A DNA stretch of 64,000 nt from positions 15,711,682 to 15,775,681 of the forward strand of contig OU452207.1 in NCBI GenBank assembly GCA_911728435.2, read 5' to 3'. The notes under the pieces were generated by a model that made no database searches, was not told the DNA's origin, and worked only from the letters and a program-made list of their open reading frames with translations. Source of the DNA: Apoderus coryli (Eukaryota > Arthropoda > Insecta > Coleoptera > Attelabidae). Shown piece by piece: positions 6,893 through 56,622 of the stretch (the first letter of the stretch is position 1; each line of letters opens with the position of its first letter). Both the position numbers and the translations under genes were made by a program.

Positions 6893-7277
6893 TAATAATT
6901 GTTTGATTTCTTTAGATTTCAAATCAAGATTTTTTTGAAAGTTAAACTATAAGCTCAAATTTATATACAGGGTGAATCAAAAATGTATTTCTTTATTTTG
7001 TTAAGGTCAAATAGTAATATTTTGAATAATTGTTTGATTTCTTTAGATTTCAAATCAAGATTTTTTTGAAAGTTAAACTATAAGCTCAAATTTATATACA
7101 GGGTGAATCAAAAATGTATTTCTTTATTTTGTTAAGGTCAAATAGTAATATTTTGAATAATTGTTTGATTTCTTTAGATTTCAAATCAAGATTTTTTTGA
7201 AAGTTAAACTATAAGCTCAAATTTATATACAGGGTGAATCAAAAATGTATTTCTTTATTTTGTTAAGGTCAAATAGT
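6893..7277. repeat. 131-bp tandem repeat, about three units
   Basis: The block containing GTTTGATTTCTTTAGATTTC recurs at about 6901, 7032 and 7163, a period of 131 bp. The units are nearly identical, so the array is young compared with the diverged copies at 5990-6500. It abuts the broken 3' end of Copia-1 in the middle of its RNase H/RT region, so array growth or a rearrangement removed the end of that element. Confidence 0.85.
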
Positions 7278-8697
7278 CAAATAGCAGGTCGTGTGGTAGT
7301 TGTAAGATACATTAAACTTCCAATTAATTCTCTAAGTGGCACATTAATTATTTCTTCTACAATATTAAACCCTGTTTCCATTGGTGTTGATACTGTTTTA
7401 CATGTATTCACATTAAATTTCTCTAAAATTTTATATGTCATAATTGTTTGTGATAGCTTTAATGATGTTTTGGTTCTTGTAGTATTGATGCCTAGAAAAT
7501 TATTAATCTCTCCTAATTCTTTTGCTTCAAATTCATCTGTTAAGCACTTAATTACTTCTGCAAAATTTTCTTTGAACCAAGTTACCAAAATATCATCTAC
7601 ATAAATAATCATAAAAACATTCGAATTATAATAAAAACAACAGTCATAATTAGATCTTTTAAAATTATTTTTTAAAACAAAATTATTAAAATGTTCGTTC
7701 CAAACTTTAGGTGATTCTTTTAAATTGTAAAGCGCGCGATTTAATTTTAAAACAGGACTTTTAACTTTTAACCCTTCAGGTGGATAAATATAATCATCAT
7801 TTTCAAGAAATTATTTAAGAATGCTGTTGGAATATCTAACTGTTTAATAGACCAATTCATTTGAAATGCATGATTTCAAAATAATTGACATCCGTGCTAC
7901 CGGAGCATAAACTGGGTCAAACGAATTCTCCTCCTTAAGTTGAAAACCTTTTGCAACTAATCTGGCCTTCTTGGTTCCATCTTCTTCTGTTCTAAATACC
8001 CACTTTGTTTGAATCGCCTTCTTTTCATGCGGAAGATTAGATTCAGACCGGGTTTTTAACTTACTATGTGACTGTAATTTTTTATTAATTACATTTTTCC
8101 AATAGTCAGATTTCGAAGCTTCTTTGAATGATGTAGGATTTATATATTCTGTTAATAAACAATAAGGTGAATAAACTTCGTAATCATTTAAATATTGTGG
8201 TTGCTGTACTGTTCTTCCTGCTCGTGTTCTAATATCATTAATTTCTTCATTATCATCCTGTATATCTGTGTTATCATTTTCATCAACCGTAACTTGTATT
8301 TCATTTGGTCTGCTATTCCATGTTATTTTATTTCTTCTAAACAATATTTTATTTTTGCTTCATCAAATGTTGCATCTCTCGAATAAACAATTTCATTTTC
8401 AACAAAATTCCATAATCTATAGCCAGTTGGTGTATAACCAACCATTATGGAATGTTCAGCACATGGTTGCAATTTATTTTGTTTAGGAATAACTACTCGC
8501 CAAGCTTGAATGCCAAAAATTCTCAATTTATGTAAATCATTCATCCCGTACCACCTTTTTGCTGGAGATATGCCTCTGTTTGCTTTTGTAGGAGTTCGAT
8601 TTAATTCATATGCCGAACACTGATTTGCTTCACCCAGAGTTCTTTCGGTAAATTGGTTTCAGCAAATTTTCTCTAACTTCGTCCATTAAAGTTCTGT
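7278..8697 (-). pseudogene. Copia-1 reverse transcriptase and integrase C-terminus, truncated
   Basis: Minus-strand continuation of a Ty1/copia polyprotein. The integrase C-terminal part (segment with RIFGIQAWRVVIP and YSRDATFDEAKIKY, 8697-8320) leads into the RT domain. RT motifs include KAIQTKWVFR, ARLVAKGFQ and the catalytic MIIYVDDILV near 7600, followed by FLGI and the QTIMTYKILEKFNV segment. The frame breaks near 7844-7613 and near 8344. The protein stops abruptly at 7278, where the 131-bp array begins, so RNase H and the 3' LTR are missing. The upstream half continues at 8698-9481, and the gag-protease half lies beyond a 6-kb nested insertion at 15490-16306. Confidence 0.85.
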
Positions 8698-10653: not shown

Positions 10654-10779
10654 TGGAGAATTTTAAAAAGGTTTAGGATGTATTATGAAAAATTATATTT
10701 ATAGTTAAGTGTTGGGACTAAATGTTAATGACTAAACTGACAGTCGTTTTACCACTTCACCAAAACACTTCTTTTTAAA

Positions 10780-10824
10780 TCTCGACGCGCGTTTCGCTAA
10801 CAATGTTAGCATCCTCAGGAGAGA
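10780..10824 (-). ncRNA. Hammerhead ribozyme motif, PLE-A left arm
   Basis: Same sequence as the motif at 14547-14589, on the opposite strand: stem I UCUC/GAGA, core CUGAGGA, stem II GCUAAC/GUUAGC with loop AUU, GAA, short stem III ACG/CGU, cleavage after GUC. Position 7 of the core is variable in hammerheads, so CUGAGGA is acceptable. It lies about 120 bp beyond the stop codon, in the 3' flank of the ORF. Confidence 0.75.
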
Positions 10825-10947
10825 ATTAAAACTAAACTACTACTAAATATATTACAGCTTATATACTATTCAAATACCACAGATACGCGCTCTGATTGGT
10901 CGCCGCGCAACCAATGAGAGGGCGGTACATACGTCAACATATATTAA

Positions 10948-12681
10948 TTACTTACATACTAAAGAATACAAAATACTATTAGGGATTGGACCCTTATCTT
11001 TGTTTAGTGCTTTTGAATTATTCTTAATAATTTCCATACTTTCATAAGCGTCCAAATATTTCCAATTGCTAACAGATTTCAACAATCTTAAGTTACTAGA
11101 ATCTACTCTATGATTATTTTCAAACATATGTTCTGCTACACTAGACTTATCTAACCTACCATATCTTAAATGAGCAATATGCTCCTTAAATCTAACATTA
11201 AGTTTTCTTTTGGTTTGTCCTATATAAACTTTGTCACAATCCTTACAACTGATTTCATAAATGCCAGATTTTTCCGTCATCTCTACTTTATCTTTTGGAT
11301 TGCCCAACAGATTGCCTAGACGTGTACTAGATTGAAAAACAGTTTTAAAGCCAATGTCACTAAAAATCTTATTTAAACCGCGTGTAAATTTTGGAAGATA
11401 AGGGATCGAAATAAATTTGGAACTATCTTGACTTTCTCGGAAAGTTGTGGCATTATGAAGTGCATTTTTAAACTTATATTTTCTAATTAATTTATCAACT
11501 AAATTGTCATCATAACCATTAACTCTAGCCACCATTTTAATTGTGTTTTTCTCTGTATCGAAACGGTTTTTATTAAGGGGAAATTTCATTAATCTATGTA
11601 CAAGAAAATTTAGGCTGGCCATTTTGTGTTGGAAACAATGATTAGAGTCATTGGTTATATACCTGAATGTATTCGTACTTTTTCTATATATGTCACATTC
11701 CAATTTGTTTTCACTGTTTTTGATTACAAGTGTGTCCAGGAATGGAAGTCTACGATCTTTTTCTAATTCATAAGTGAATTTGATAGATGAGAAGCAATTA
11801 TTAAGTTGGGCAACAAAGTTATCAATTGTATCAACACTTGTATCAAAAACAGCAAACACATCGTCCACATATCTGATCCAAACTCTGGGAAAATATGAAA
11901 AATTGGTTTTCGCGGAGGCTTCAAAATAATTAATAAATAATTCAGCTAAAAAGGGGGATAAACAGCTACCCATAGCAGTGCCTTCATGTTGTTCATAGAA
12001 TTCATTATTATATTGGAAAATATTTTGGGACATACAAAGATTTGTAAGTGAAAGATATTCTTCTATTAATTCGGATGCGACATTATTCTTTGTAAGATAA
12101 TCTTGAAGATATTCGAGAGTTTTTGGAATAGGGACACTCGGAAACAGAGAAGATACGTCAAAAGACACAAGAACTTCATTGGGATTTAGAATAATGTTTT
12201 TAACTCTCTCAATAAATTCATATGAATTTTGGACGGAGTAAGATTCTAACGGATTGGATAATTTTTTGAATTGTTCGACTAACCATTTTGATATGTTATA
12301 AGTAGGAGAAGAAATAGCAGATACAATTGGTCTAACCGATTTCCCGGGTTTATGGATTTTGGGTAGACAATATAATTTAGAGATAGTTGGATTAGATATC
12401 TGTAACCTACGCTTCAGATTAGGAGTAACAAGGTTTTTGCATTTACTAAGAATTGATTTAACTTGTGTCGTCATCTTTGGCAAGGGATTCTTATTAAGTT
12501 TTCTATATGGACCACTTTCAATGAGCTGATCAACTCTTTCAAAGTAGTCCACTTTGTCCAAAACACAAGGTTTTGATTTAACTTGTGTCGTCATCTTTGG
12601 CAAGGGATTCTTATTAAGTTTTCTATATGGACCACTTTCAATGAGCTGATCAACTCTTTCAAAGTAGTCCACTTTGTCCAA
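10948..12681 (-). CDS. Penelope-like reverse transcriptase with GIY-YIG endonuclease (PLE-A, intact frame)
   Basis: 577-codon open frame for a Penelope-like retroelement protein. RT motifs run in order: PKIHKPGKSVRPI (about residue 110), FDVSSLFPSVP (about 175), GTAMGSCLSPFLAEL (about 235) and the catalytic RYVDDVFAVFD (about 270). The C-terminus carries a GIY-YIG nuclease: GIYEISC (about 473), a CxxC pair and VYIGQTKRKL, then RFKEH. The first 40 residues, MDKVDYFERVDQLIESGPYR onward, are repeated once in frame by the 120-bp duplication. Penelope proteins are usually longer at the N-terminus, so the protein is 5'-truncated, and the ATG used here is only the first methionine after the centre of the palindrome. 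No lesion interrupts this arm, in contrast to the right arm. Confidence 0.85.
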   Translation of the reverse strand: MDKVDYFERVDQLIESGPYRKLNKNPLPKMTTQVKSKPCVLDKVDYFERVDQLIESGPYRKLNKNPLPKMTTQVKSILSKCKNLVTPNLKRRLQISNPTISKLYCLPKIHKPGKSVRPIVSAISSPTYNISKWLVEQFKKLSNPLESYSVQNSYEFIERVKNIILNPNEVLVSFDVSSLFPSVPIPKTLEYLQDYLTKNNVASELIEEYLSLTNLCMSQNIFQYNNEFYEQHEGTAMGSCLSPFLAELFINYFEASAKTNFSYFPRVWIRYVDDVFAVFDTSVDTIDNFVAQLNNCFSSIKFTYELEKDRRLPFLDTLVIKNSENKLECDIYRKSTNTFRYITNDSNHCFQHKMASLNFLVHRLMKFPLNKNRFDTEKNTIKMVARVNGYDDNLVDKLIRKYKFKNALHNATTFRESQDSSKFISIPYLPKFTRGLNKIFSDIGFKTVFQSSTRLGNLLGNPKDKVEMTEKSGIYEISCKDCDKVYIGQTKRKLNVRFKEHIAHLRYGRLDKSSVAEHMFENNHRVDSSNLRLLKSVSNWKYLDAYESMEIIKNNSKALNKDKGPIPNSILYSLVCK

Positions 12682-12692
12682 AACACAAGGTT
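12453..12692. repeat. 120-bp tandem duplication (left arm)
   Basis: Two identical consecutive 120-bp units; for example the lines starting at 12481 and 12601 are the same over their length. The duplication keeps the frame (40 codons). The same duplication is present in mirror image on the right arm (about 12697-12930), so it predates or accompanied formation of the palindrome. Confidence 0.9.
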
Positions 12693-14421
12693 GTGATTTT
12701 GGACAAAGTGGACTACTTTGAAAGAGTTGATCAGCTCATTGAAAGTGGTCCATATAGAAAACTTAATAAGAATCCCTTGCCAAAGATGACGACACAAGTT
12801 AAATCAAAACCTTGTGTTTTGGACAAAGTGGACTACTTTGAAAGAGTTGATCAGCTCATTGAAAGTGGTCCATATAGAAAACTTAATAAGAATCCCTTGC
12901 CAAAGATGACGACACAAGTTAAATCAATTCTTAGTAAATGCAAAAACCTTGTTACTCCTAATCTGAAGCGTAGGTTACAGATATCTAATCCAACTATCTC
13001 TAAATTATATTGTCTACCCAAAATACATAAACCCGGGAAATCGGTTAGACCAATTGTATCTGCTATTTCTTCTCCTACTTATAACATATCAAAATGGTTA
13101 GTCGAACAATTCAAAAAATTATCCAATCCGTTAGAATCTTACTCCGTCCAAAATTCATATGAATTTATTGAGAGAGTTAAAAACATTATTCTAAATCCCA
13201 ATGAAGTTCTTGTGTCTTTTGACGTATCTTCTCTGTTTCCGAGTGTCCCTATTCCAAAAACTCTCGAATATCTTCAAGATTATCTTACAAAGAATAATGT
13301 CGCATCCGAATTAATAGAAGAATATCTTTCACTTACAAATCTTTGTATGTCCCAAAATATTTTCCAATATAATAATGAATTCTATGAACAACATGAAGGC
13401 ACTGCTATGGGTAGCTGTTTATCCCCCTTTTTAGCTGAATTATTTTGAAGCCTCCGCGAAAACCAATTTTTCATATTTTCCCAGAGTTTGGATCAGATAT
13501 GTGGACGATGTGTTTGCTGTTTTTGATACAAGTGTTGATACAATTGATAACTTTGTTGCCCAACTTAATAATTGCTTCTCATCTATCAAATTCACTTATG
13601 AATTAGAAAAAGATCGTAGACTTCCATTCCTGGACACACTTGTAATCAAAAACAGTGAAAACAAATTGGAATGTGACATATATAGAAAAAGTACGAATAC
13701 ATTCAGGTATATAACCAATGACTCTAATCATTGTTTCCAACACAAAATGGCCAGCCTAAATTTTCTTGTACATAGATTAATGAAATTTCCCCTTAATAAA
13801 AACCGTTTCGATACAGAGAAAAACACAATTAAAATGGTGGCTAGAGTTAATGGTTATGATGACAATTTAGTTGATAAATTAATTAGAAAATATAAGTTTA
13901 AAAATGCACTTCATAATGCCACAACTTTCCGAGAAAGTCAAGATAGTTCCAAATTTATTTCGATCCCTTATCTTCCAAAATTTACACGCGGTTTAAATAA
14001 GATTTTTAGTGACATTGGCTTTAAAACTGTTTTTCAATCTAGTACACGTCTAGGCAATCTGTTGGGCAATCCAAAAGATAAAGTAGAGATGACGGAAAAA
14101 TCTGGCATTTATGAAATCAGTTGTAAGGATTGTGACAAAGTTTATATAGGACAAACCAAAAGAAAACTTAATGTTAGATTTAAGGAGCATATTGCTCATT
14201 TAAGATATGGTAGGTTAGATAAGTCTAGTGTAGCAGAACATATGTTTGAAAATAATCATAGAGTAGATTCTAGTAACTTAAGATTGTTGAAATCTGTTAG
14301 CAATTGGAAATATTTGGACGCTTATGAAAGTATGGAAATTATTAAGAATAATTCAAAAGCACTAAACAAAGATAAGGGTCCAATCCCTAATAGTATTTTG
14401 TATTCTTTAGTATGTAAGTAA
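12693..14421 (+). pseudogene. Penelope-like RT with GIY-YIG (PLE-A right arm), frameshifted
   Basis: Mirror copy of the left-arm gene on the plus strand. It reads without change through the duplicated N-terminal block and RT motifs up to FLAELF at 13447. There, 11 bp present in the left arm are missing between short ATTATTT direct repeats, which puts a stop at 13446-13448. The original frame resumes at 13453 (IRYVDDVFAVFD) and runs through the GIY-YIG domain to the stop at 14421. Apart from this deletion I saw no differences between the arms, so the duplication is recent or the arms are kept alike. Confidence 0.9.
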
Positions 14422-14637
14422 TTAATATATGTTGACGTATGTACCGCCCTCTCATTGGTTGCGCGGCGACCAATCAGAGCGCGTATCTGTGGTATTTGAA
14501 TAGTATATAAGCTGTAATATATTTAGTAGTAGTTTAGTTTTAATTCTCTCCTGAGGATGCTAACATTGTTAGCGAAACGCGCGTCGAGATTTAAAAAGAA
14601 GTGTTTTGGTGAAGTGGTAAAACGACTGTCAGTTTAG
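12697..14637 (+). mobile_element. PLE-A right arm of the palindrome
   Basis: Reverse complement of 10731-12683, with a 13-bp centre at 12684-12696 that is itself nearly palindromic (CACAAGGTTGTG). The right arm ends CTGTCAGTTTAG, then 33 bp not found on the left arm (14638-14670), then the second copy of AAATGTTAATGA at 14671. The extra bases may be filler added at integration or sequence lost from the left end. Confidence 0.85.
14547..14589 (+). ncRNA. Hammerhead ribozyme motif, PLE-A right arm
   Basis: UCUC, CUGAGGA, stem II GCUAAC/GUUAGC (6 bp, loop AUU), GAA, ACG/CGU mini stem III, cleavage after GUC, then GAGA closing stem I with UCUC. All core positions fit the hammerhead consensus CUGANGA...GAA(A)...UH. 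It lies downstream of the RT/GIY-YIG ORF, about 125 bp past its stop. Confidence 0.75.
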
Positions 14638-14670
14638 TGTTCTACGCCAAAGGTTCTACTCATCGATTAT

Positions 14671-15489
14671 AAATGTTAATGAATCAAAAAATGTGAGGCA
14701 ATCAAATTCCAATTGATCATTAACGCAGTTAATATTTGGATCATTCTTGATGTTGTTAATCTCCAATGCCTCGAGGATATTAAGTAAAGTGCTCTTAGGA
14801 CAGGAATGTAACATTTTAAAGTTTTGTTCAATGTCAAATACATGATTGGAATTAACGATGTGATTTGCAAAAGCCGAGTTACTATTAATGTCATTCTGGT
14901 CGACATCTCTACCTCTTTGTATGATTCTAAGGTGCTCATTAAGGCGGATTTCAAAAGATCTACCTGTTTGACCTATATATGTTGTTGAGCAACTGGGATT
15001 ACCACAGTTAATTTGATATACTCCAGTCTTTTTCATAAGAGGGATTGTACTTTTACTGTTATTCAAAAATGAGTTAATGGTATGTTTAGTGCGAAAACAG
15101 ATGTTGATATTATTATTCATGAACACTTTCTTAATGTGTAATAGGAAAGGAGCAGTGTATGTAATAGGGTAAAATTTAGTGGGGGTATTAGTTTTTGGAG
15201 GGATGAGGGCATGGAAAATATGTTTAAAAATGTATGTAAAATAAATTTTGTTAATTAAAGTTTTTGGGTAAGAAGAAATATGGTAAATCCATGACAATTC
15301 TCTATTAAAATCATCTGTGGACAATGGTACATTGAATAAGCGATAGAAAAGAGAGTGGAATGTTGCCATTTTGTGAGATGGAGGATGATTAGAGTTAAAT
15401 GGAATGATCGAATCAGTAGCGGTCGGTTTGTGATAAATGGAGAATGAAACACCTGAATCAGATCTATGTAATAGAAGACCTAAATTTTT
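14671..15489 (-). pseudogene. PLE-B protein C-terminus with GIY-YIG, 5'-truncated
   Basis: Minus-strand fragment of a second, different Penelope-like protein. It starts at the Copia junction near 15489 and reads through SIYHKPTATDS, the HKMATFHSL segment typical of the region after the RT core, and a GIY-YIG nuclease (TGVYQINC, CSTTYIGQTGRSFEIRLNEH). It has no RT core because it is 5'-truncated. The frame is open to LTF at about 14671, where PLE-A is inserted; apparent residues beyond that come from PLE-A filler. An ORF that seems to start at 15600 fuses the Copia protease active site to this fragment; that fusion is an insertion artefact. Confidence 0.8.
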
Positions 15490-16306
15490 TTCTATATCTG
15501 ACATATATTCTAATTTCTCAGTAAGTAAATTTTGTGTAGCTCCAGACTCCAGAATAAAAATATGTTCATCATTAATATCTACCATATTGTTTAAAGCCAA
15601 AAATGAAATTTTCTCACCTGCATTTTCATATGCTCTTACTTATGTATTAGAATTATTACCTCTACCACGACCTAATCCGCTTCTACTTCCCTTACTAAAG
15701 TCGCCTCTTGAATTACCACGATTATAATTCAAATATCGCTGCTTACACGCTGACGCTTTGTGACCTGCTTTACCGCATTTTTAACAAACAATTTGAGCCT
15801 TGAACATTGTTTCTCCTTCTTGCTTCGTTTGCCTTTTACCCATAACTTTCATTTCTTCATCGAAAAGTCGAGATTTTAACGTCTCAATTGCTGTTATTAC
15901 TGTGTCGTATTGTTCATTTATAGATAACACGAGATGGCCAATTTTATCACTTTCATCCATCTTCGCACCAACATTTTCTAAATCTCTTACCAACTTATCG
16001 AAATTATGGAAATGATCTTCTAATTTTTCATTCCTTTTTAATTTTAATGTTAACAATTTCTTCTTCATCGTGAGCTTTGTAAATACACTTTTTCTTTCAA
16101 ACACATTTTCTAAACTTACTATCATTTGTTTTTGCATCTTTAAGTAAATATTCTTTCTTGTTTTCATCTACAATGCTATCAAAATCTTCATCCAAAACAC
16201 TGTTTACGCCTTTTTCTTCTAACAAGACAAATACTCTGAATTTCCAATTACTAAAATTGGTACTTGTCAATTGAGGCAAATTTACTGTCAGTGAAGACAT
16301 CTTCAA
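15490..16306 (-). pseudogene. Copia-1 gag and protease N-terminus
   Basis: Begins at 16306 with a Copia gag: LPQLTSTNFSNWKFRV followed by the helical gag body (LKRNEKLEDHFHNFDKLVRDLE, here in pieces). The frame breaks near 16110. A CCHC zinc knuckle with the KCGKAGH core follows an in-frame stop near 15780, then an arginine/glycine/serine-rich linker. The protease active site reads HIFILESGATQN (E where D is usual, so the catalytic Asp appears mutated) at about 15555. The frame is cut at about 15489 by PLE-B and resumes at 9481. Confidence 0.8.
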
Positions 16307-26244: not shown

Positions 26245-26640
26245 AAAATTTTCTGAAGTAATCCATCTTCGAGAGGAGTTGAATGTGTAAGACACAAATA
26301 AAAACAACGTCTACTCCACTAAACTATTCATATATTAGTATGCAATAAGCTTGCAACGCCAGACATGTTTCAGAAAACTAAGTTTCATCATCAGTGGCTC
26401 ATAATAAACAGTCACGCAGTCATTTTAGTTACAGTCAAAAACAGAATGGCATGGATTATATAAACATATAGAAACTGAAAGTGTTATAGCTCTTAGACAT
26501 GAGAATATTTTAAACTATTATGTAAAAACTTACAAATTAGTGGAAATTATTGGAATAAAATCTTATAAAATTAAAATATAAAACATTTTCTTATTGAAAA
26601 AAAAAGGAAACTCAAAATTATTGTGTTGTCATAGTATATA
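26245..26640 (-). mobile_element. PLE tail fragment with hammerhead, upstream of BEL-1 gag
   Basis: Shares the terminal block of PLE-B: on the minus strand a hammerhead, then GTGGAGTAGACG, then a CTCCTCGAAGATGGATTAC-like terminus. It sits about 60 bp upstream of the BEL-1 gag start and has replaced or displaced the BEL-1 leader, whose 5' LTR is not visible. The right boundary is approximate. Confidence 0.55.
26358..26398 (-). ncRNA. Hammerhead ribozyme motif
   Basis: Minus strand: stem I GCCA/UGGC, CUGAUGA, an AU-rich stem II (GAAAC/GUUUU with loop UUA), GAA, ACAUGU stem III, cleavage after C. The core is intact; stem II is weak. Confidence 0.65.
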
Positions 26641-26885
26641 AAATTTAGTCATTTTTATAGTTTCTTTTTGTATATCATAGTTTAGTTTAAAATCTTTATG
26701 AAAAATAGAACTTTCGAGAAATGGCAAACAGATTTAGTAGTTATTAAAAAGTTGTATAAATCAAACTGGACAGTAGGTACGTGACAGGATAGCAAAGATT
26801 GGACCAGGCTTGCTCGTATTTGTAAAAGATATTATGCAGGTCTGTTGCTGAATGTGTTTTGGTAGTGAGTGAACTGAGTATCGGG

Positions 26886-27362
26886 TCATTTGCCATATGC
26901 CAATGGCAACATCTAGCGTGAACAGGCAATATGCCGGGTGAAACACAGTTCACAAACCATGGCCGGACAAGAAGTAACAACTCCATTATATCCTATTGCC
27001 AACACTAAATGCGCCCGAATCCCCTAGCAGGGAGGCTTTATTTAAGAATTGCTTGTTACATAAAGCAACAAGACTTTAAGTTATGTTGGAAATTTGTTTC
27101 ACACAGAACCCACTGATGAGTCGTGGATCGACGAAACGGCCGTCTGGTGAAAGCATGGTAGTGTGAAACAAATTTCCAACATAACTTAAAGTCTTGTTGC
27201 TTTATGTAACAAGCAATTCTTAAATAAAGCCTCCCTGCTAGGGGATTCGGGCGCATTTAGTGTTGGCAATAGGATATAATGGAGTTGTTACTTCTTGTCC
27301 GGCCATGGTTTGTGAACTGTGTTTCACCCGGCATATTGCCTGTTCACGCTAGATGTCGCCAA
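26886..27362. repeat. Inverted repeat (about 200-bp arms) centred on a hammerhead
   Basis: The left arm (about 26905-27105) is the reverse complement of the right arm (about 27158-27360), with only the hammerhead and a few bases between them. The right-arm sequence recurs as a direct copy after the second hammerhead (27489-27712), and a 48-bp inverted scrap appears at 28084-28131. No protein is encoded. The arms include AATTTCCAACATAACTT, GGGGATTCGGGCGCA and TGTTTCACCCGGCAT blocks. Confidence 0.85.
27109..27148 (+). ncRNA. Canonical hammerhead ribozyme, copy 1
   Basis: CUGAUGA (27113-27119), stem II GUCG/CGAC with loop UGGAU, GAA, ACGGCCGU stem III, cleavage after GUC (27144), then UGGUG. 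Stem I proper has 3 bp here (CCA/UGG) but is extended, past an internal loop, by the long inverted repeat. Confidence 0.78.
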
Positions 27363-27446
27363 AAACATCTCTCTCTCTCAATCAATTCTCGTGCTAGTAT
27401 AAGCTCTTTGTAAATGTTGGAAATTTGGGTCACACTGCCTGCCGAT

Positions 27447-27488
27447 CACCACTGATGAGTCGTGGATCGACGAAACGGCCGTCTGGTG
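27447..27488 (+). ncRNA. Canonical hammerhead ribozyme, copy 2
   Basis: CACCA, CUGAUGA (27452-27458), stem II GUCG/CGAC, GAA, ACGGCCGU, cleavage after GUC (27483), UGGUG. Stem I is 5 bp and perfect. Further out, AUGUUGGAAAUUUG and the downstream CAAAUUUCCAACAU can pair, so the ribozyme lies at the tip of a longer imperfect stem. Confidence 0.82.
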
Positions 27489-27712
27489 AAAGCATGGTAG
27501 TGTGAAACAAATTTCCAACATAACTTAAAGTCTTGTTGCTTTATGTAACAAGCAATTCTTAAATAAAGCCTCCCTGCTAGGGGATTCTGAAGCATTTAGT
27601 GTTGGCAATAGGATATAATGGAGTTGTTACTTCTTGTCCGGCCATGGTTTGTGAACTGTGTTTCACCCGGCATTTTGCCTGTTCACGCTAGATGTCGCCA
27701 AAAACATCTGTC
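27489..27712 (+). repeat. Second direct copy of the hammerhead-repeat arm
   Basis: Near-identical to 27149-27362, differing at a few sites (for example GATTCTGAAGC against GATTCGGGCGC). With the first copy it makes a head-to-tail dimer of about 339 bp, hammerhead to hammerhead, which is the arrangement from which a ribozyme would release unit-length RNA. Confidence 0.8.
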
Positions 27713-27715
27713 TCT

Positions 27716-28072
27716 TAATAGGTATTAATTCTGCAAAAATAATTTCTACATTCGAAATTCCAGAGGCAGAACAGAACAAATATAAATATACAATGGATAT
27801 GCTCGATAAATATGTAAACCCTAGAATTAATGAATGTTTCGAACGGTATAATTTTTTGCAACGAACACAGAAGAAAGGTGAGAGTTTCTAACACTTTCTA
27901 ACCGACTGTAAATATTTAATAAGAAGTTGCAATTATAATATGAATGATCCTAATGAGAGTGCTGAAGATAATGCTCTTCGAGATAAAATTGTCATGCTAA
28001 TCAAGGACCACGCGACACGAGAAGCCTTATTAAGGGTCGATTAACTTACGCCAGCGAAAGCTATACAATTTT
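27716..28072 (+). pseudogene. Gypsy-like gag fragment
   Basis: Plus-strand fragment reading INSAKIISTFEIPEA, then YVNPRINECFERYNF, RTQKKGESF, LTDCKYLIRSCNY, DKIVMLIKDHATREALLR. This pattern is typical of gag proteins of Gypsy/Ty3 elements found in arthropods. In-frame TAA codons follow GESF (about 27890) and RVD (about 28041). It begins and ends abruptly next to hammerhead-repeat sequence on both sides. Only about 120 codons of gag remain. Confidence 0.6.
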
Positions 28073-28083
28073 GAGAGAGAGAT

Positions 28084-28131
28084 GTTTCTGGCGACATCTT
28101 GCGTGAACAGGCAATATGCCGGGTGAAACAC
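28084..28131 (-). repeat. Inverted scrap of the hammerhead repeat
   Basis: The reverse complement of the outer end of the repeat arm (the TTTCACCCGGCATATTGCC region) lies between the Gypsy gag fragment and the BEL protease fragment. The gag fragment is thus bracketed by opposite-facing pieces of the same repeat. Confidence 0.7.
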
Positions 28132-28137
28132 AGGTAG

Positions 28138-31592: not shown

Positions 31593-34426
31593 TGCATCTA
31601 AATATCCAGGGACTAAAAGGAAAATCGCTGGAAGTTGAAATGATGCTTCACGAACATAACATTGATGTCTTTTGCATCAGTGAACACTGGTTGGAACAAA
31701 ATGAGGAAAATTTCTGAATTGGTGACTATCGTTGTGCTAGTGTATACCATAGAACAACGTTTAGACGCGGTGGTGTAGCTATTATGGTAAGAAATAATAT
31801 GATTGTTAGGGAAGTTTCTTTTGACATATGTATAGATAAGATATTAGAAATAAGTTGTATTGAATGTAATTTTTCATCGTCGGGCGAAGTAGTCACGATC
31901 TGCTGTGTTTATCGATCACAATCTGGGGATCTGGATGAGTTCATGGACTTGCTCGGGCGTGTGTTGGATGGGGTGTGTCGGCCGGATCGTAGACTTGTGA
32001 TATGTGGGGACTTCAACCTCAATATGCTAAGCGAAGCTAGCGACAAATGTGCGAAAAATTTAATTAATTTACTAAGAGAATATGATCTTAAACAAACCAT
32101 TTTTGCACCAACAAGGACGACAAATACCTCGGCAACTTGTATTGATAATATTTTTGTTAACTTTGATGGCTTCTCTTCCGAGGTAATCGAAAACGCAATA
32201 TCGGATCACTCATGTGTGATGATTGGTCTGGAAACAAAAAGCCCAAAATTCGAAACAACAAATACATATTTACGTAGATGTTATAGTCTACCAAACCAAC
32301 AGGTGTTCAGAGACAGTCTTGCGTTGGTGAGCTGGCGCGACGTGTTTCGGGGGTGCCCCGACGCAAATAATATGTTTGATGCGTTTTTCGACGAATTTAC
32401 GGATAAATTCGAGATAGCTTTTCCGGAACGCAAATTTAGTACTCGGCAAAAAAATAAAAGTAGGACGAATAAATGGATGACATCAGAACTTAAAGAGTTG
32501 TCAACATTTGTTAGAGAAATGCATAAAACTAGTAAACAACTAAATAATGAATTATATAGTGTGCGGTGTAAGGAATTAAAAAAAATTTATAAAAACAAAT
32601 TGAGACTGGCAAAAAAGACATATAACGATAGGAGAATTGCCAGTGCTACTAATATAAATAGAACGTGCTGGGATATCGTCCGCGAACAAAAAAATATCTC
32701 AAGAAAAAACTTTATCAGGGAGATAAGGGAATTAGACGGGTCGTTAGTTAATTGCTCCAACAAAATATCGAACTTGTTTAATGAATTTTTCGCTGGTCTG
32801 GCCAACAATTGTGAATCACCCAATAGGGATACACAACCTAAAGGGATATCTAGCCCAAAATCATTTTTCCTGGGCCCTACAGCGAGTCACGAGGTTATCA
32901 AAACCATCGAGAAATGTTGTAAAAAAAGGTCCTGCGGGGTTGATGGCATACCCGGTAATGTTATCGGATCCGTACGTGACTTAATTAGTGAACCCATAGC
33001 TCATCTAATAAATGTGAGTTTTGCAGAGGGTGTTTACCCAGAGAAACTTAAAACATCGAAAATTGTACCCATTTTTAAAAATAAAGGCGATCCACTTCAT
33101 ATGTCTAATTACCGACCATTAGCTTTACAAAGCAACTTCGCTAAGATTTACGAATCTATATTTAACAAAAGACTAAGCAGTTATCTTGAAAAAAATAAAA
33201 TACTCGAAGATAATCAGAACGGTTTCAGACCATCTAAATCAACAGAAACAGCATTGGGACAGGCTCTTGATCACATTCTAACTTGCCTTAATAATAAACG
33301 GGAGGTGTTGGGGGTATTTTTTGACATGAGTCGTGCGTTTGACTCAGTCGATCACCAACTCCTTTTCAACAAACTTGAACACATAGGTATAAGAGGCCAA
33401 GCACTAAGTTGGATTATCAGCTACTTACAAGGAAGAACCCAGCAGGTTGAATTGGCCGGCTGTCGCTCTCACAAATTAAGGGTAACTAAAGGTACACCCC
33501 AAGGATCTTGTATCAGCCCTACTTTATTCAATATATTTATTAATGATCTCCCAACAACACTGGACAGACCAGGGACGACACTATCAGTGATCTACGCTGA
33601 TGACACAAACGTGTTAATAGCAGCGAATAATACCGAGCAATTGGTCAAGTTGGGTAATCGAGCGACTCGCGACATGTCGGGATGGTGCGACGCAAATGGC
33701 TTATATCTGAACACCTCAAAAAGTGTAGCACTACCTTTCGCCACCAAAAATAAGACTATTAATAGTAGTATTCTCTTAAAAACTGATAAAAAATCCATAG
33801 CTAATGTGACAAATACCAGGTTTTTGGGCCTTTATATTGATCAAAAATTGACTTGGAGTGTTCACGTTGATCACGTTGTTTCTAAATTAAGTAGTGTTCG
33901 ATTCCTGCTATATAACCTAAAAAATACCGTAACTTTAGATGTTATTAAACTAGTATACTATGGCCTCGCACAGTCAGTTATGTCCTATGGTTTGGCGTTT
34001 TGGGGTGGCGCCTCAGAATGGAGACAGATTTTTATAAAACAAAAAAAGATAATAAGAGCAATGATGAGTGTTGCTCCTTCGACATCGTGCAAAAGTTTCT
34101 TTAAAAAATTGAATATAATGACATTTCCATGTCTTTATATATTTTCACTAATTATTTATACCAATAACCGAGTAGACTGTCGGCGCAGGACTGATATTCA
34201 TCGGTATAACACGCGCTCGGGTGGGGACTTGGACGTTCAGTTTTCTAGATTAAAGATAGGGCAGAACAATCCCAAGATCCTCGGAGCGAAATGTATTAAC
34301 CAGTTAGTCAAACTCAATCCTGATTTTGACGTAAACATGTCTAGAACTAATTTTAAACAAAAGTTAAAAAAATTTCTGTGTGGCAGGTGCTATTATTCGC
34401 TCGACGAATTCTTTAGTGACAAATAA
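31592..34426 (+). CDS. Element B ORF2: endonuclease and reverse transcriptase, one nonsense codon
   Basis: About 945 codons from the ATG at 31592. The endonuclease has MHLNIQGLKGK, FCISEHWL (catalytic Glu), RRGGVAIMV, CCVYRSQSGD, ICGDFNLN (Asp) and ISDHSCVMIGL (catalytic His). The RT has GVDGIPGNVIG, KIVPIFKNKGD, NYRPLALQSNFAKIYE, NGFRPSKST, FFDMSRAFDSVDH, GTPQGSCISPTLFNIF and the catalytic VIYADDTNV near 33590. The C-terminal region ends YYSLDEFFSDK. A single TGA at 31715-31717 interrupts the endonuclease; a long frame is open from 31784. It overlaps ORF1 by TAATG, consistent with coupled re-initiation. It is a recent copy, near-functional apart from the stop and the 5' truncation. Confidence 0.88.
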
Positions 34427-34621: not shown

Positions 34622-37062
34622 AAAAAAAACCACTTGAATTATTTAGAGGTGATACAAATATAGATATTTTGGAAGATACTGAGGTCAGTCACGAATACCT
34701 CAATACCTTATACGAACATGGTTTTCTTTCCGCCATAAATACATATACTAGAATTCAACAAAATATGCATCCTGCATAGATCATATCTTTATTAAATCTG
34801 ATTATGTTAAAAAAGAATCACTTTTACCTATTGTGTTGCACTCCGCTATCACAGACCACTTTCCTGTATTAGTCTCAATTCCAATGACAAACTCTAACTG
34901 CATTTCCAATAGAAAAATTGTACAGTACAATAAACTAAATTTTGTAAGACTGAAACAAATCTTAATGAACGAAAATTTTGATGAAGTTATGACCAGTGCT
35001 GATGTCGAACAGGCAACAAGAGATTTTGTAAAAATCCTAAATACATCTATTAAAGATGCCTCAAATCAAATAAAGTATCTGCCTAAAAAGAAAAGAAAGG
35101 AGTGGGTGACAAATGGTCTTCTGAAATCAATAGAAGTTAGAGACAGATTATTTAGGGAATACACCAAGAACAAAAATCCAGAAGTATTAAATAAATTTAA
35201 ACAGTATAGAAATCGAATTGTCAAACTTACGCAGCATCTAAAAAATAACTACTATAAAGCTAAAATACAAAATAGCAATAATAATACCAAAAGGTTATGG
35301 GAGACAGTTAATGAGTATATTTCTAATAACAAAACTGTAGATAAAGGTATAAATAAAATTAAAAAAAGCTCCGGGGAATGTACCACAGTGAACTCAGAAA
35401 TAGCTGAACAATTCAATACACATTATGCCACTATTGGAGAAAGAATGGCACTGTCCATACTTAATAATACAAAAAATAATAACTTTTACCCGAAAAATAA
35501 AAGATCTATTATGCAATCAATGTATCTTAGGCATACCGACAGTCTTGAAGTTCTACAAACTATAAATTCGTTAAAACCAAATGCATCTCCTGGGCTAGAT
35601 GGAATTACCGTTGTAACACTAAAAGAAGTGGCGAATGAAATCAAAACTCCGTTGGCTTTTATTATTAATTTAATTATTGATAAGGGGCAGTGCCCCCAAC
35701 TGTTCAAAGAGGCAGTTATAGTACCAATCTATAAATCGGGAAATAAAGAATTAGTAGAAAACTATAGAACTATTAGTTTAATATCAAACGTAGCCAAAAT
35801 TTTTGCGAAAATTATGAAAAAGAGGCTGACTAGCTTTCTGGACAAAAATAATATTATATCTGAGCGACAATTCGGATTCACGGAAAATAAAAGTACTAGT
35901 GATGCGATTGCAATGATAACAAGAAAAATATACCAGTCCTTGGATCGGAGCCGTCCCTGTGCAGGAGTCTTCATAGATCTTGCTAAGGCGTTTGACACAG
36001 TGAGTCATAAAATATTAGTCGAAAAATTAGAGTTGATTGGTGTCAGGGGATCTGTTCAAAAGTTATCTCCAAAATAGGATGCAGAGAGTTAGGGTCAATG
36101 ATACATTACGTCACTCAGAAAAAGTATCTTATGGTATACCCCAAGGGACAGTTCTAGGTCCAGTATTATTTAACATATATCTAAATGAGCTACTTACTTT
36201 GGAATTCCATGGAATGGTTATCTCGTTTGCAGATGATACTGTTATATATGAAGAAGGAAATACCTGGGATGAAGTTGAATATAACATCAAGGAGGATCTG
36301 CAGCTAATAACTAGTTGGTTTGATAGGCACTTACTTACCATTAACCTCGATAAAACAATTTACATGTCATTCATCAAATAATATTACTAGACAGCCAAAT
36401 AATAACAGGATAAGGGTTAACCTACCACAAAGAAACCATGATTGGATCATTGAACAAAAAAATCAAATAAAATACCTTGGAATCACTCTAGATAGGCACA
36501 TGAGTTGGGACGACCATGTCAGTAAATTAGTTAAAAAAATTAGATCATTAATATATATATATTTAATCAAACAAAAAAAATTTTAACAACTCAGCAAAAC
36601 CGCTTATTGTATTTTTCATTGGTTCAGTCTCTCTTAACATACGGAATTGTCGGCTGGGGAGGGGCTTACAACAGTAATATTAAGCCATTGATTATGATTC
36701 AAAAAAGAATATTAAAGATTATCTACAATTTAGATAGACGGTTTCCAACTGCAACGCTTTTCCAATATTGTGATGTATTAACTATTAGACAACTTTACTA
36801 TAAATGCTCTTTTCTCCAATTAAATAAGCAAAATTTGTTCTTAAATATTAATAATCACGTACATAACACTAGATCAAGAGCACAAAGTGACATACAGCAA
36901 CCAAGAGCGAAACAAAGTATTGGTCAAAGAGCATTTTATTATGTCGGTCATAAATTGTATAACTGTGTGCCAGTTGAACTCAGATCTAAATTGAAACAGA
37001 GAAGTTTTAAATATATAATTAGTAACTGGCTAGTGCGGAATAACCCACAGTTATTAAGATAA
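34622..37062 (+). pseudogene. Element A ORF2, endonuclease end and reverse transcriptase
   Basis: Resumes after element B with KKPLELFRGDTNIDILED and CIDHIFIKSDYV, then ITDHFPVLVSI (catalytic His of the endonuclease). The RT shows NASPGLDGITV, AVIVPIYKSGN, NYRTISLISNVAKIFAKI, RQFGFTENKST, GVFIDLAKAFDTVSH, GIPQGTVLGPVLFNIY and SFADDTVIYEE. Frameshifts near 36050, 36375 and 36590 split the rest, which ends with TYGIVGWGGAYNSNI and a C-terminal block at 37062. It is older than element B, judging by the number of lesions. Confidence 0.85.
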
Positions 37063-45369: not shown

Positions 45370-45998
45370 TTTAAAAGGTGTTTAAATTGTACAACATTTC
45401 TCTAATTTAACAGACATTGTAACTCCTACCGTTTCTAAGATTTGTTTTATATGACGCATTATTTTGATTCCAAATATCTTACATGGAAACAAAATAGTGC
45501 CGCACATGAAACGAAATGTATATTGGAATCAAAATAGTGTGCCGTATCAAACGACGTGTATACTCTCTCAATATACATTTTGTTTTATATGACGTATTAT
45601 TTTGATTCCAAATATCTTACATGGAAACAAAATAGTGCCGCACATGAAACGAAATGTATATTGGAATCAAAATAGTGTGCCGTATCAAACGACATGTATA
45701 CTCTCTCAATATACATTTCGTTTTATATGACGCATTATTTTGATTCCAAATAACTTACATGGAACCAAAATAATGCCGCACATGAAACGAAATGTATATT
45801 GGAATCAAAATAGTGTGCCGTATCAAACGACATGTATACTCTCTCAATATACATTTTGTTTTATATGACGTATTATTTTGATTCCAAATATCTTACATGG
45901 AAATAAAATAGTGCCGCACATGAAACGATTTAAAAGGTGTTTAAATTATACAACATTTCTCTAATTTAACAGATATTGTAACTCCTACCGTTTCCAAG
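45370..45998. repeat. 138-bp satellite array flanked by 70-bp direct repeats
   Basis: About 3.5 units of roughly 138 bp start near 45445. Each unit contains ATTTTGATTCCAAATA and its inverse TATTGGAATCAAAAT, so each can fold. The array is bounded on both sides by the same AAAGGTGTTTAAATT...CCTACCGTTTC sequence (45373-45440 and 45929-45998), as if it grew inside a single repeat copy. An isolated, diverged unit lies at 46620-46735. Confidence 0.85.
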
Positions 45999-48659: not shown

Positions 48660-48785
48660 GTTCCTTAAGCCACTGATGATGCACGTGTAGTCCGAAACAT
48701 GTCTAGCAGATAAAACAAGGTTTTAACGTATATATATATATATAGATGATTTTGTGGAGTAGACGTCGTTTTATTCAAATTATAA
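48660..48785 (+). mobile_element. PLE tail fragment with hammerhead
   Basis: Contains the hammerhead at 48669-48707, a short (TA)n stretch and TTTTGTGGAGTAGACGTCGT (about 48750-48771), shared with the PLE-B terminus. It ends inside a protease-linked relic read on the other strand. Confidence 0.6.
48669..48707 (+). ncRNA. Hammerhead ribozyme motif
   Basis: GCCA, CUGAUGA, a weak stem II, GAA, ACAUGU, cleavage after GUC, UAGC. Stem I is 4 positions with one mismatch. The core is intact, but stem II shows little pairing (CAC/GUG internal), so folding is doubtful. Confidence 0.5.
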
Positions 48786-52313: not shown

Positions 52314-52398
52314 AAGTATTGTCATTATAAATAGTTATTTCTTCTAATTTAATAAAATAGTTATTCATTATTTAAATAATATATCTCATTATTTAACA
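52314..52398 (+). repeat. Copia-2 5' LTR, truncated to 85 bp
   Basis: Identical in reading to the last 85 bp of the 3' LTR (56538-56622) and ends ATTTAACA. The first 108 bp or so of the LTR, together with some host sequence, are missing. Confidence 0.85.
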
Positions 52399-56429: not shown

Positions 56430-56622
56430 TGTTAAAATAATTAAATTATAATTATTTTATTTTAATCTTGGCGCCTAACCACATTGTATATTATGGTGTC
56501 ATTATTATATTTATGAAGTTGTCAATTAATTTAATTTAAGTATTGTCATTATAAATAGTTATTTCTTCTAATTTAATAAAATAGTTATTCATTATTTAAA
56601 TAATATATCTCATTATTTAACA
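56430..56622 (+). repeat. Copia-2 3' LTR, complete
   Basis: 193 bp from TGTTAAAATAATT to ATTTAACA, just after the polypurine tract. Its last 85 bp match the remaining 5' LTR. Confidence 0.88.

Follow-up and report, generated by a model that had tools for sequence, protein, structure and literature searches.

The closest described relatives of the locus presented here are the non-LTR retrozymes of metazoans, which, like it, consist of small tandem repeats (about 300 nt) that code for no protein, carry type I hammerhead ribozymes (HHRs), and are low in GC. According to the available parts of their descriptions (PMC7229834, PMC7761336), they range from dimers to multimers, include insect examples, and are suggested to be moved by Penelope-like elements (PLEs). 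Target duplications, head-to-head insertions, and 3' ends fixed as a pair, all reported below, are not described for animal retrozymes in these accounts, as far as their available text goes. The words "inverted" and "target site" occur nowhere in the available text of PMC7229834, and no report of the three features for animal retrozymes was found in the available text of the literature searched, from which subscription papers were mostly absent. The pDo500 satellite of Dolichopoda is likewise an insect tandem repeat with a hammerhead, described in the available text as satellite DNA (PMC2837043), and the word "inverted" does not occur there. Plant LTR retrozymes are likewise non-coding retroelements with tandem HHRs, but the available part of their description (PMC7761336) assigns them HHRs of type III, 4-bp duplications, LTRs about 350 bp long, and mobilisation by Ty3-Gypsy elements, whereas the HHRs here are of type I and the duplications measure 8 to 14 bp.

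PLEs resemble the retrozyme insertions of this genome in their head-to-head direct and inverted copies, one-sided tail, A+T-rich targets, and target duplications (PMC3846280, PMC11167929, available parts). A Penelope insertion is described as two direct pLTRs with an adjacent inverted pLTR and a target duplication, optionally with a tail of about 31 bp on one inverted pLTR, and the layout of rotifer PLEs is put down to self-priming (PMC3846280, in the text available). The pLTRs carry HHRs, in direct and inverted order (PMC3846280, PMC7761336, in part). An earlier, sequence-only reading of the locus knew of no described element combining a tandem ribozyme repeat with an inverted copy; Penelope, with its direct and inverted pLTRs, provides a precedent for the layout (PMC3846280, in part). 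A purified PLE cuts and extends both strands in vitro, with internal starts (PMC11167929, available part). PLEs encode a reverse transcriptase (RT) and a GIY-YIG endonuclease and the retrozyme encodes nothing, so it is not itself a PLE.

The window, the whole stretch of 64,000 nucleotides that was analysed, is eukaryotic and rich in retroelements, and belongs to contig C16 of the 428-Mb assembly. Its relevant features are as follows.

26904..27104, minus strand: inverted arm, unit positions 17-217, 3' side leftward, outer end 16 nt short of site B
27105..27109, no strand: filler at the head-to-head junction, 5 nt, read from the sequence
27110..27715, plus strand: direct array of about 1.8 units, stopping at site B (unit position 232)
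27113..27144, plus strand: hammerhead core copy 1, stem I damaged
27145..27483, plus strand: unit of 339 nt between successive cleavage sites, predicted to be the RNA monomer
27219..27230, plus strand: site A (unit positions 75-86), at which, as at site B, insertions in other parts of the genome end
27372..27388, plus strand: site B (unit positions 228-244), the second end point of insertions in other parts of the genome; the array here also has its right end (27715) at B
27452..27483, plus strand: hammerhead core copy 2, its core identical to that of copy 1
28073..28133, minus strand: separate inverted piece of the unit (positions 173-233), B-type end at its left, absent from the earlier reading
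10719..14682, no strand: head-to-head Penelope element used as comparator, flanked by a duplication of 13 bp (10719-10731 / 14670-14682), its 31-nt tail (14639-14669) present only at the right

From 26904 to 27715 an inverted arm is followed by two rounds of HHR and direct arm, the second HHR lying 339 nt after the first. The inverted arms (26904-27104 and 27161-27361) are complementary at 200 of 201 nt with 56 nt between them, and the direct repeat (27110-27376 and 27449-27715) is identical at 262 of 267 positions with a spacing of 339. The sequence-only reading had described this layout correctly, including the small spacer around copy 1; its arm of 224 bp shortens to 201 bp, and its start at 26886 takes in 18 nt of flank.

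A loose HHR pattern scanned over the 64-kb window matches 6 sites against 0.32 expected, two of them being copies 1 and 2. In a 3-kb scan with the Rfam Hammerhead_1 model, copy 2 reaches 33.8 bits (E 5.7e-6) and copy 1 28.7 bits (E 2.9e-4); the scan of the whole window at the gathering threshold yields no hammerhead, because both copies score under the 34-bit gathering score. The extended stem I noted earlier holds for copy 2, where an outer block (27414-27451 / 27484-27521) is 79% complementary over 38 nt and an internal loop is present where a loop contact could form. It does not hold for copy 1, whose stem I has a non-native 5' strand composed of the inverted arm and the 5-nt filler (27105-27109), leaving about three inner pairs; with the native strand lost, this ribozyme is probably impaired. 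Energy minimisation of the HHR region yields a structure other than the HHR, at -37.1 kcal/mol against -28.4 for the HHR, a difference of 8.7 kcal/mol.

Read as a circle, the unit has at most 49 codons between stops, in agreement with the earlier view that no protein is encoded, and its self-pairing is well above that of 200 shuffles (z -6.6; opposite strand, z -2.9). The exact HHR core occurs 1983 times (990 + 993) in the 428-Mb genome, and 0 times in the reversed control. With type I HHRs, tandem units of 339 nt inside the 150-450 bp range of metazoan retrozymes, no coding capacity, and 43.7% GC, below their 45%, the locus is supported by its sequence as an animal (non-LTR) retrozyme with around two thousand genomic cores, the layout that the earlier reading had recognised. 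All ten tested invariant HHR bases are kept in 112 of 122 family units. We considered purifying selection on the HHR and rejected it: the 32-nt core is not unusually conserved, 35% of 32-nt windows being as low or lower, and minor bases among copies amount to 1.8% in the HHR region and 1.7% in the rest. Three scans of viral contigs for HHR patterns gave 0 matches.

A genome search with a 554-nt query gave 1506 candidates, the best 40 of which were scored, yielding 148 matches. The matches fall into 40 places, all of which were mapped (the window copy plus 20, 16, and 3 loci); they represent the best matches to the dimer query out of 1506 candidates. Unit position 1 is the first base after the HHR cut, and ends were counted in windows of 75-86 for A and 228-244 for B. 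The unit is about 336-341 nt long in most other loci, and arrays reach about ten units (L035). The 71 outward 3' ends fall almost entirely on two places, 33 on A (positions 77-85) and 32 on B (230-243), with 6 elsewhere, whereas only 4 of 62 inner ends lie inside the A or B windows. Both outer ends are defined in 26 of the 40 loci, and 25 of these pair one A with one B, the exception being L038 (B/B). In the remaining 14, an end lies at another place or points outward with its 5' side (the window copy, L031, L032, L036, L041, L043, L047, L049, L052, L053, L056, L059, L060, and L065); by eye, L036 and L047 show a short B-type stub next to a duplication. In computed circular folds of the window unit, sites A and B are mostly unpaired (0.80 and 0.96, against a unit mean of 0.39); in a second family, described below, they are less so (0.62 and 0.51-0.59, unit mean 0.34-0.36).

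Of the 40 loci, 26 have a duplication of 8 bp or more that abuts the ends, namely 24 of the A/B loci, L041, and L059; across 200 runs with swapped flanks the mean is 0.79 and the highest count 4. L033 has A/B ends without a duplication. In the 24 A/B loci they are 8-14 bp long (median 12) and have 11% GC, against 36% for the fetched loci. As in Penelope insertions, a head-to-head composite thus stands between duplications in 24 of 40 loci; the window copy has no duplication. With one A and one B end and the duplications placed around the composite, the inverted and the direct array are therefore one insertion. To judge from these loci, the inverted arm is a common insertion layout of the family and no oddity.

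Near-perfect palindromes can be amplification or sequencing chimeras, and the earlier reading had named an assembly error as a possible source of the inverted copy. The palindromes here stop at element ends, between duplications, at many places in the genome, and the two arms of the comparator Penelope element differ by an 11-nt indel; this recurrence means that the window spot is no assembly error, and an artefact of assembly or amplification, or a chance repeat, is extremely improbable as an explanation. The same layout bears on the suggestion that the inversion is a separate, selected device, caging the ribozyme or giving a long dsRNA hairpin. In favour of such a device, read-through RNA of the locus would, by computation, fold into a long hairpin. 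The inner junctions, however, lie at scattered unit positions between loci and the enclosed HHR has a damaged stem I, and there is no sign of a hairpin function. We rejected the functional hairpin or cage because the inverted arm turned out to be a common insertion layout, and we give a selected device hardly any credence.

Copies, ends, and target duplications, for which the earlier reading had proposed a search, were found in the family, and no duplication at the window copy itself. Its right end is at B, its left end is at 217 where 230-243 or 77-85 is expected, and the longest word common to both flanks is 4-6 nt. Position 26735 was tried as a partner of the right flank and discarded, its match with 2 mismatches being too weak. 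From its sequence, the window copy appears to be a worn, partly eroded example of a non-autonomous animal retrozyme, atypical in its eroded left end and missing duplication. Separately, the roughly 357 nt between the array and the inverted piece at 28073-28133 (27716-28072) are a gag-like coding remnant, two pieces of which gave no Pfam match; both B-type ends point toward it.

The window Penelope element has RT and GIY-YIG domains (Pfam), and its ORF matches insect proteins, the best named matches being from Molorchus, Aromia, and Tribolium, which are beetles; the genome is therefore probably that of a beetle. It forms a head-to-head palindrome of about 1.95 kb with almost no loop, its arms differing, besides the 11-nt indel, by one 1-nt gap and one mismatch. 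For its duplication, a length of 13 was reached in 2 of 5000 shuffles. Hammerhead-like motifs lie at both ends (10784-10818, minus strand; 14551-14585, plus strand; Rfam 18.3 bits, E 1.2). An ORF adjoining the palindrome (14656-15639, minus strand) looks by eye like the C-terminal part of another Penelope protein and has no Pfam match. A genome search with the PLE 3' region, for which the best 40 of 1406 candidates were scored, gave 43 matches with 8 head-to-head pairs among them. All 8 pairs carry the tail on one side only, just as the two sides of 25 of the 26 two-ended retrozyme loci have different 3' ends, and all 8 share flank words of 12-14 bp with 18% GC; swapped flanks reach at least 8 bp in 4 of 42 cases, with a maximum of 10. 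The retrozyme ends are about 155 nt apart in the unit and those of the PLE about 31. The rotifer examples have duplications of 8-10 bp (PMC3846280, available part), compared with 12-14 bp for the PLEs of this genome.

HHRs and direct and inverted order are known in PLE pLTRs (PMC3846280, PMC7761336, in part), and the unit might accordingly be a pLTR remnant with no element of its own. We regard this as very unlikely: arrays of up to about ten units (L035) are free of ORFs, a diverged second family has the same layout, and, for the PLE of the window, the HHR core differs from that of the retrozyme and a sensitive search with the retrozyme unit found no similarity at the PLE ends. Nor was an owner found for the arm among protein-coding elements, the alternative that the earlier reading had raised against itself.

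A different source of the enzymes, with priming on two strands, would be the LINEs. LINE-1 twin priming gives inversions, and LINE RT ORFs are present in the window (31718-34426 and 34752-36077), so that LINE enzymes could have acted in place of PLE enzymes. LINEs have a single 3' end, which would not predict two fixed sites, and the resident PLE matches the retrozyme in duplication length, base composition, head-to-head order, and one-sided tail; a LINE origin of the enzymes is possible but unlikely.

Within a locus, units of opposite arrays differ by a median of 0.3% (mean 1.1%; 110 comparisons in 24 loci), while units from different loci differ by a median of 2.9% (mean 3.0%). In 22 of the 24 testable loci the opposite arrays are closer to each other than to other loci, the exceptions being L054 and L056. 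Both arrays were thus probably copied from one RNA in most loci. A circular template, as known in other animals, fits by analogy, and elsewhere a linear multimer may have served. The inner ends are spread over the unit but over-represented just behind the HHR cut (14 of 62 at unit positions 1-35, 6 of 62 at 1-8), suggesting that some templates may be linear, HHR-cleaved RNA.

The inverted arm might instead have arisen from a single cDNA that folded back and copied its own strand, the self-priming proposed for PLE palindromes (PMC3846280, available text). The window locus offers some agreement with it, as the inverted arm sides with copy 1 and against copy 2 at all 4 arm positions that distinguish the copies, and the window PLE palindrome is almost loopless; the agreement at the 4 positions suits a heterogeneous template as well as copying from copy 1. 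A copy made by fold-back should end at or before the 3' end of its template, whereas in 25 of 26 loci the end site differs between the two sides, and the loop lengths given by the inner ends scatter from 0 to 329 nt (31 loci). Self-priming is therefore disfavoured as a general mechanism and quite unlikely as the source of the inverted arm. Priming from two strands at two sites fits both the retrozyme and the PLE better, because a fold-back copy should not end away from its template's end site.

We consider it likely, from these sequence patterns, that a single retrozyme RNA is reverse transcribed from two internal sites, each primed by one of the two cut strands of the target, and probably by PLE enzymes. 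Transcripts are predicted to self-cleave at the HHR, and the cleaved RNA would be circularised, by analogy with other animals. A retroelement enzyme would cut the two target strands about 12 bp apart in A+T-rich DNA, and each target 3' end would prime reverse transcription of the same retrozyme RNA, one at A and one at B. Each cDNA may go round the RNA more than once, and the far cDNA ends would meet head to head, leaving an inverted and a direct array between duplications of 8-14 bp. We infer the priming from both strands, the single and probably circular template, and the Penelope-type RT/GIY-YIG enzyme, this last because PLE insertions of the same genome bear the same signature, which is what would link the retrozyme to PLEs. 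Against the rule stand the window copy, the B/B locus L038, L033 without a duplication, the 14 of 40 loci without two defined ends, and the arrays of L054 and L056.

On balance we lean towards a broader view, in which animal retrozymes are passengers of Penelope enzymes: one RNA, probably circular, would be primed at two fixed internal sites by both cut strands of one target, the transcripts meeting head to head. An autonomous partner that cannot be deduced from the retrozyme sequence would then be identified by the duplication and the two start sites, and the same priming would explain why Penelope elements have inverted pLTRs and a tail on one side, for which it offers an alternative to self-priming. 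The insertion signature makes the proposal of PLEs as movers directly testable.

A sample with less bias, made up of the 20 core clusters that come first by position on one contig (C1), contains 9 loci of the family described so far (family 1) and 11 of the second family (L084, L087, L088, L091, L092, L094, L095, L096, L100, L101, and L102). The family 2 unit is 333 nt long and agrees exactly with family 1 over its final 42 nt, at the HHR; the body is diverged, with only one other stretch (58 nt at 76%) aligning. The duplication test on the 20 loci with family 1 coordinates alone gave 1 of 20 (null maximum 2), which is not significant by itself; family 2 required coordinates from its own unit. 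With these, all 7 two-ended family 2 loci are mixed, one end lying at 72-78 and the other at 230-238, and 6 of the 7 share flank words of 12-16 bp (raw count), L087 having 7 bp. L094, L095, L100, and L102 do not match the two-ended form, L095 being of a single direction with a 10-bp shared word near its ends. In family 1, both A and B occur at L089 together with 13 bp, and at L098 an A end is paired with a B stub (by eye) and 13 bp. L085 and L086 combine B with an end of another kind. In 5 of the 9 (L090, L093, L097, L099, and L103) one end is A, the opposite side is truncated, and there is no duplication. The 100 cores listed form 68 clusters when those under 1 kb apart are grouped; 13 of these clusters have cores on both strands, and all 13 are head to head. 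Complete two-ended insertions are common, though not universal. A 9-row alignment of the two families shows double changes in 9 of 96 pairs; it carries little weight, because its covariation term is unfavourable (+2.85) and the L084 row is 12 nt off.

Further hammerhead-like motifs with a short helix III are found in the window at 26362-26394 (minus strand) and 48673-48703 (plus strand); E-value scans of stretches at these places gave no hammerhead match from Rfam. We take them to resemble minimal PLE hammerheads; their surroundings are 71% identical over 107 columns, the downstream part included. Tandem arrays occupy 45441-45928 (138-bp units) and 6894-7286 (131-bp units). Identical 85-nt direct repeats (52314-52398 and 56538-56622), 4224 nt apart, surround copia-type ORFs with integrase and zinc-knuckle domains and are possibly the LTRs of a copia-type element.
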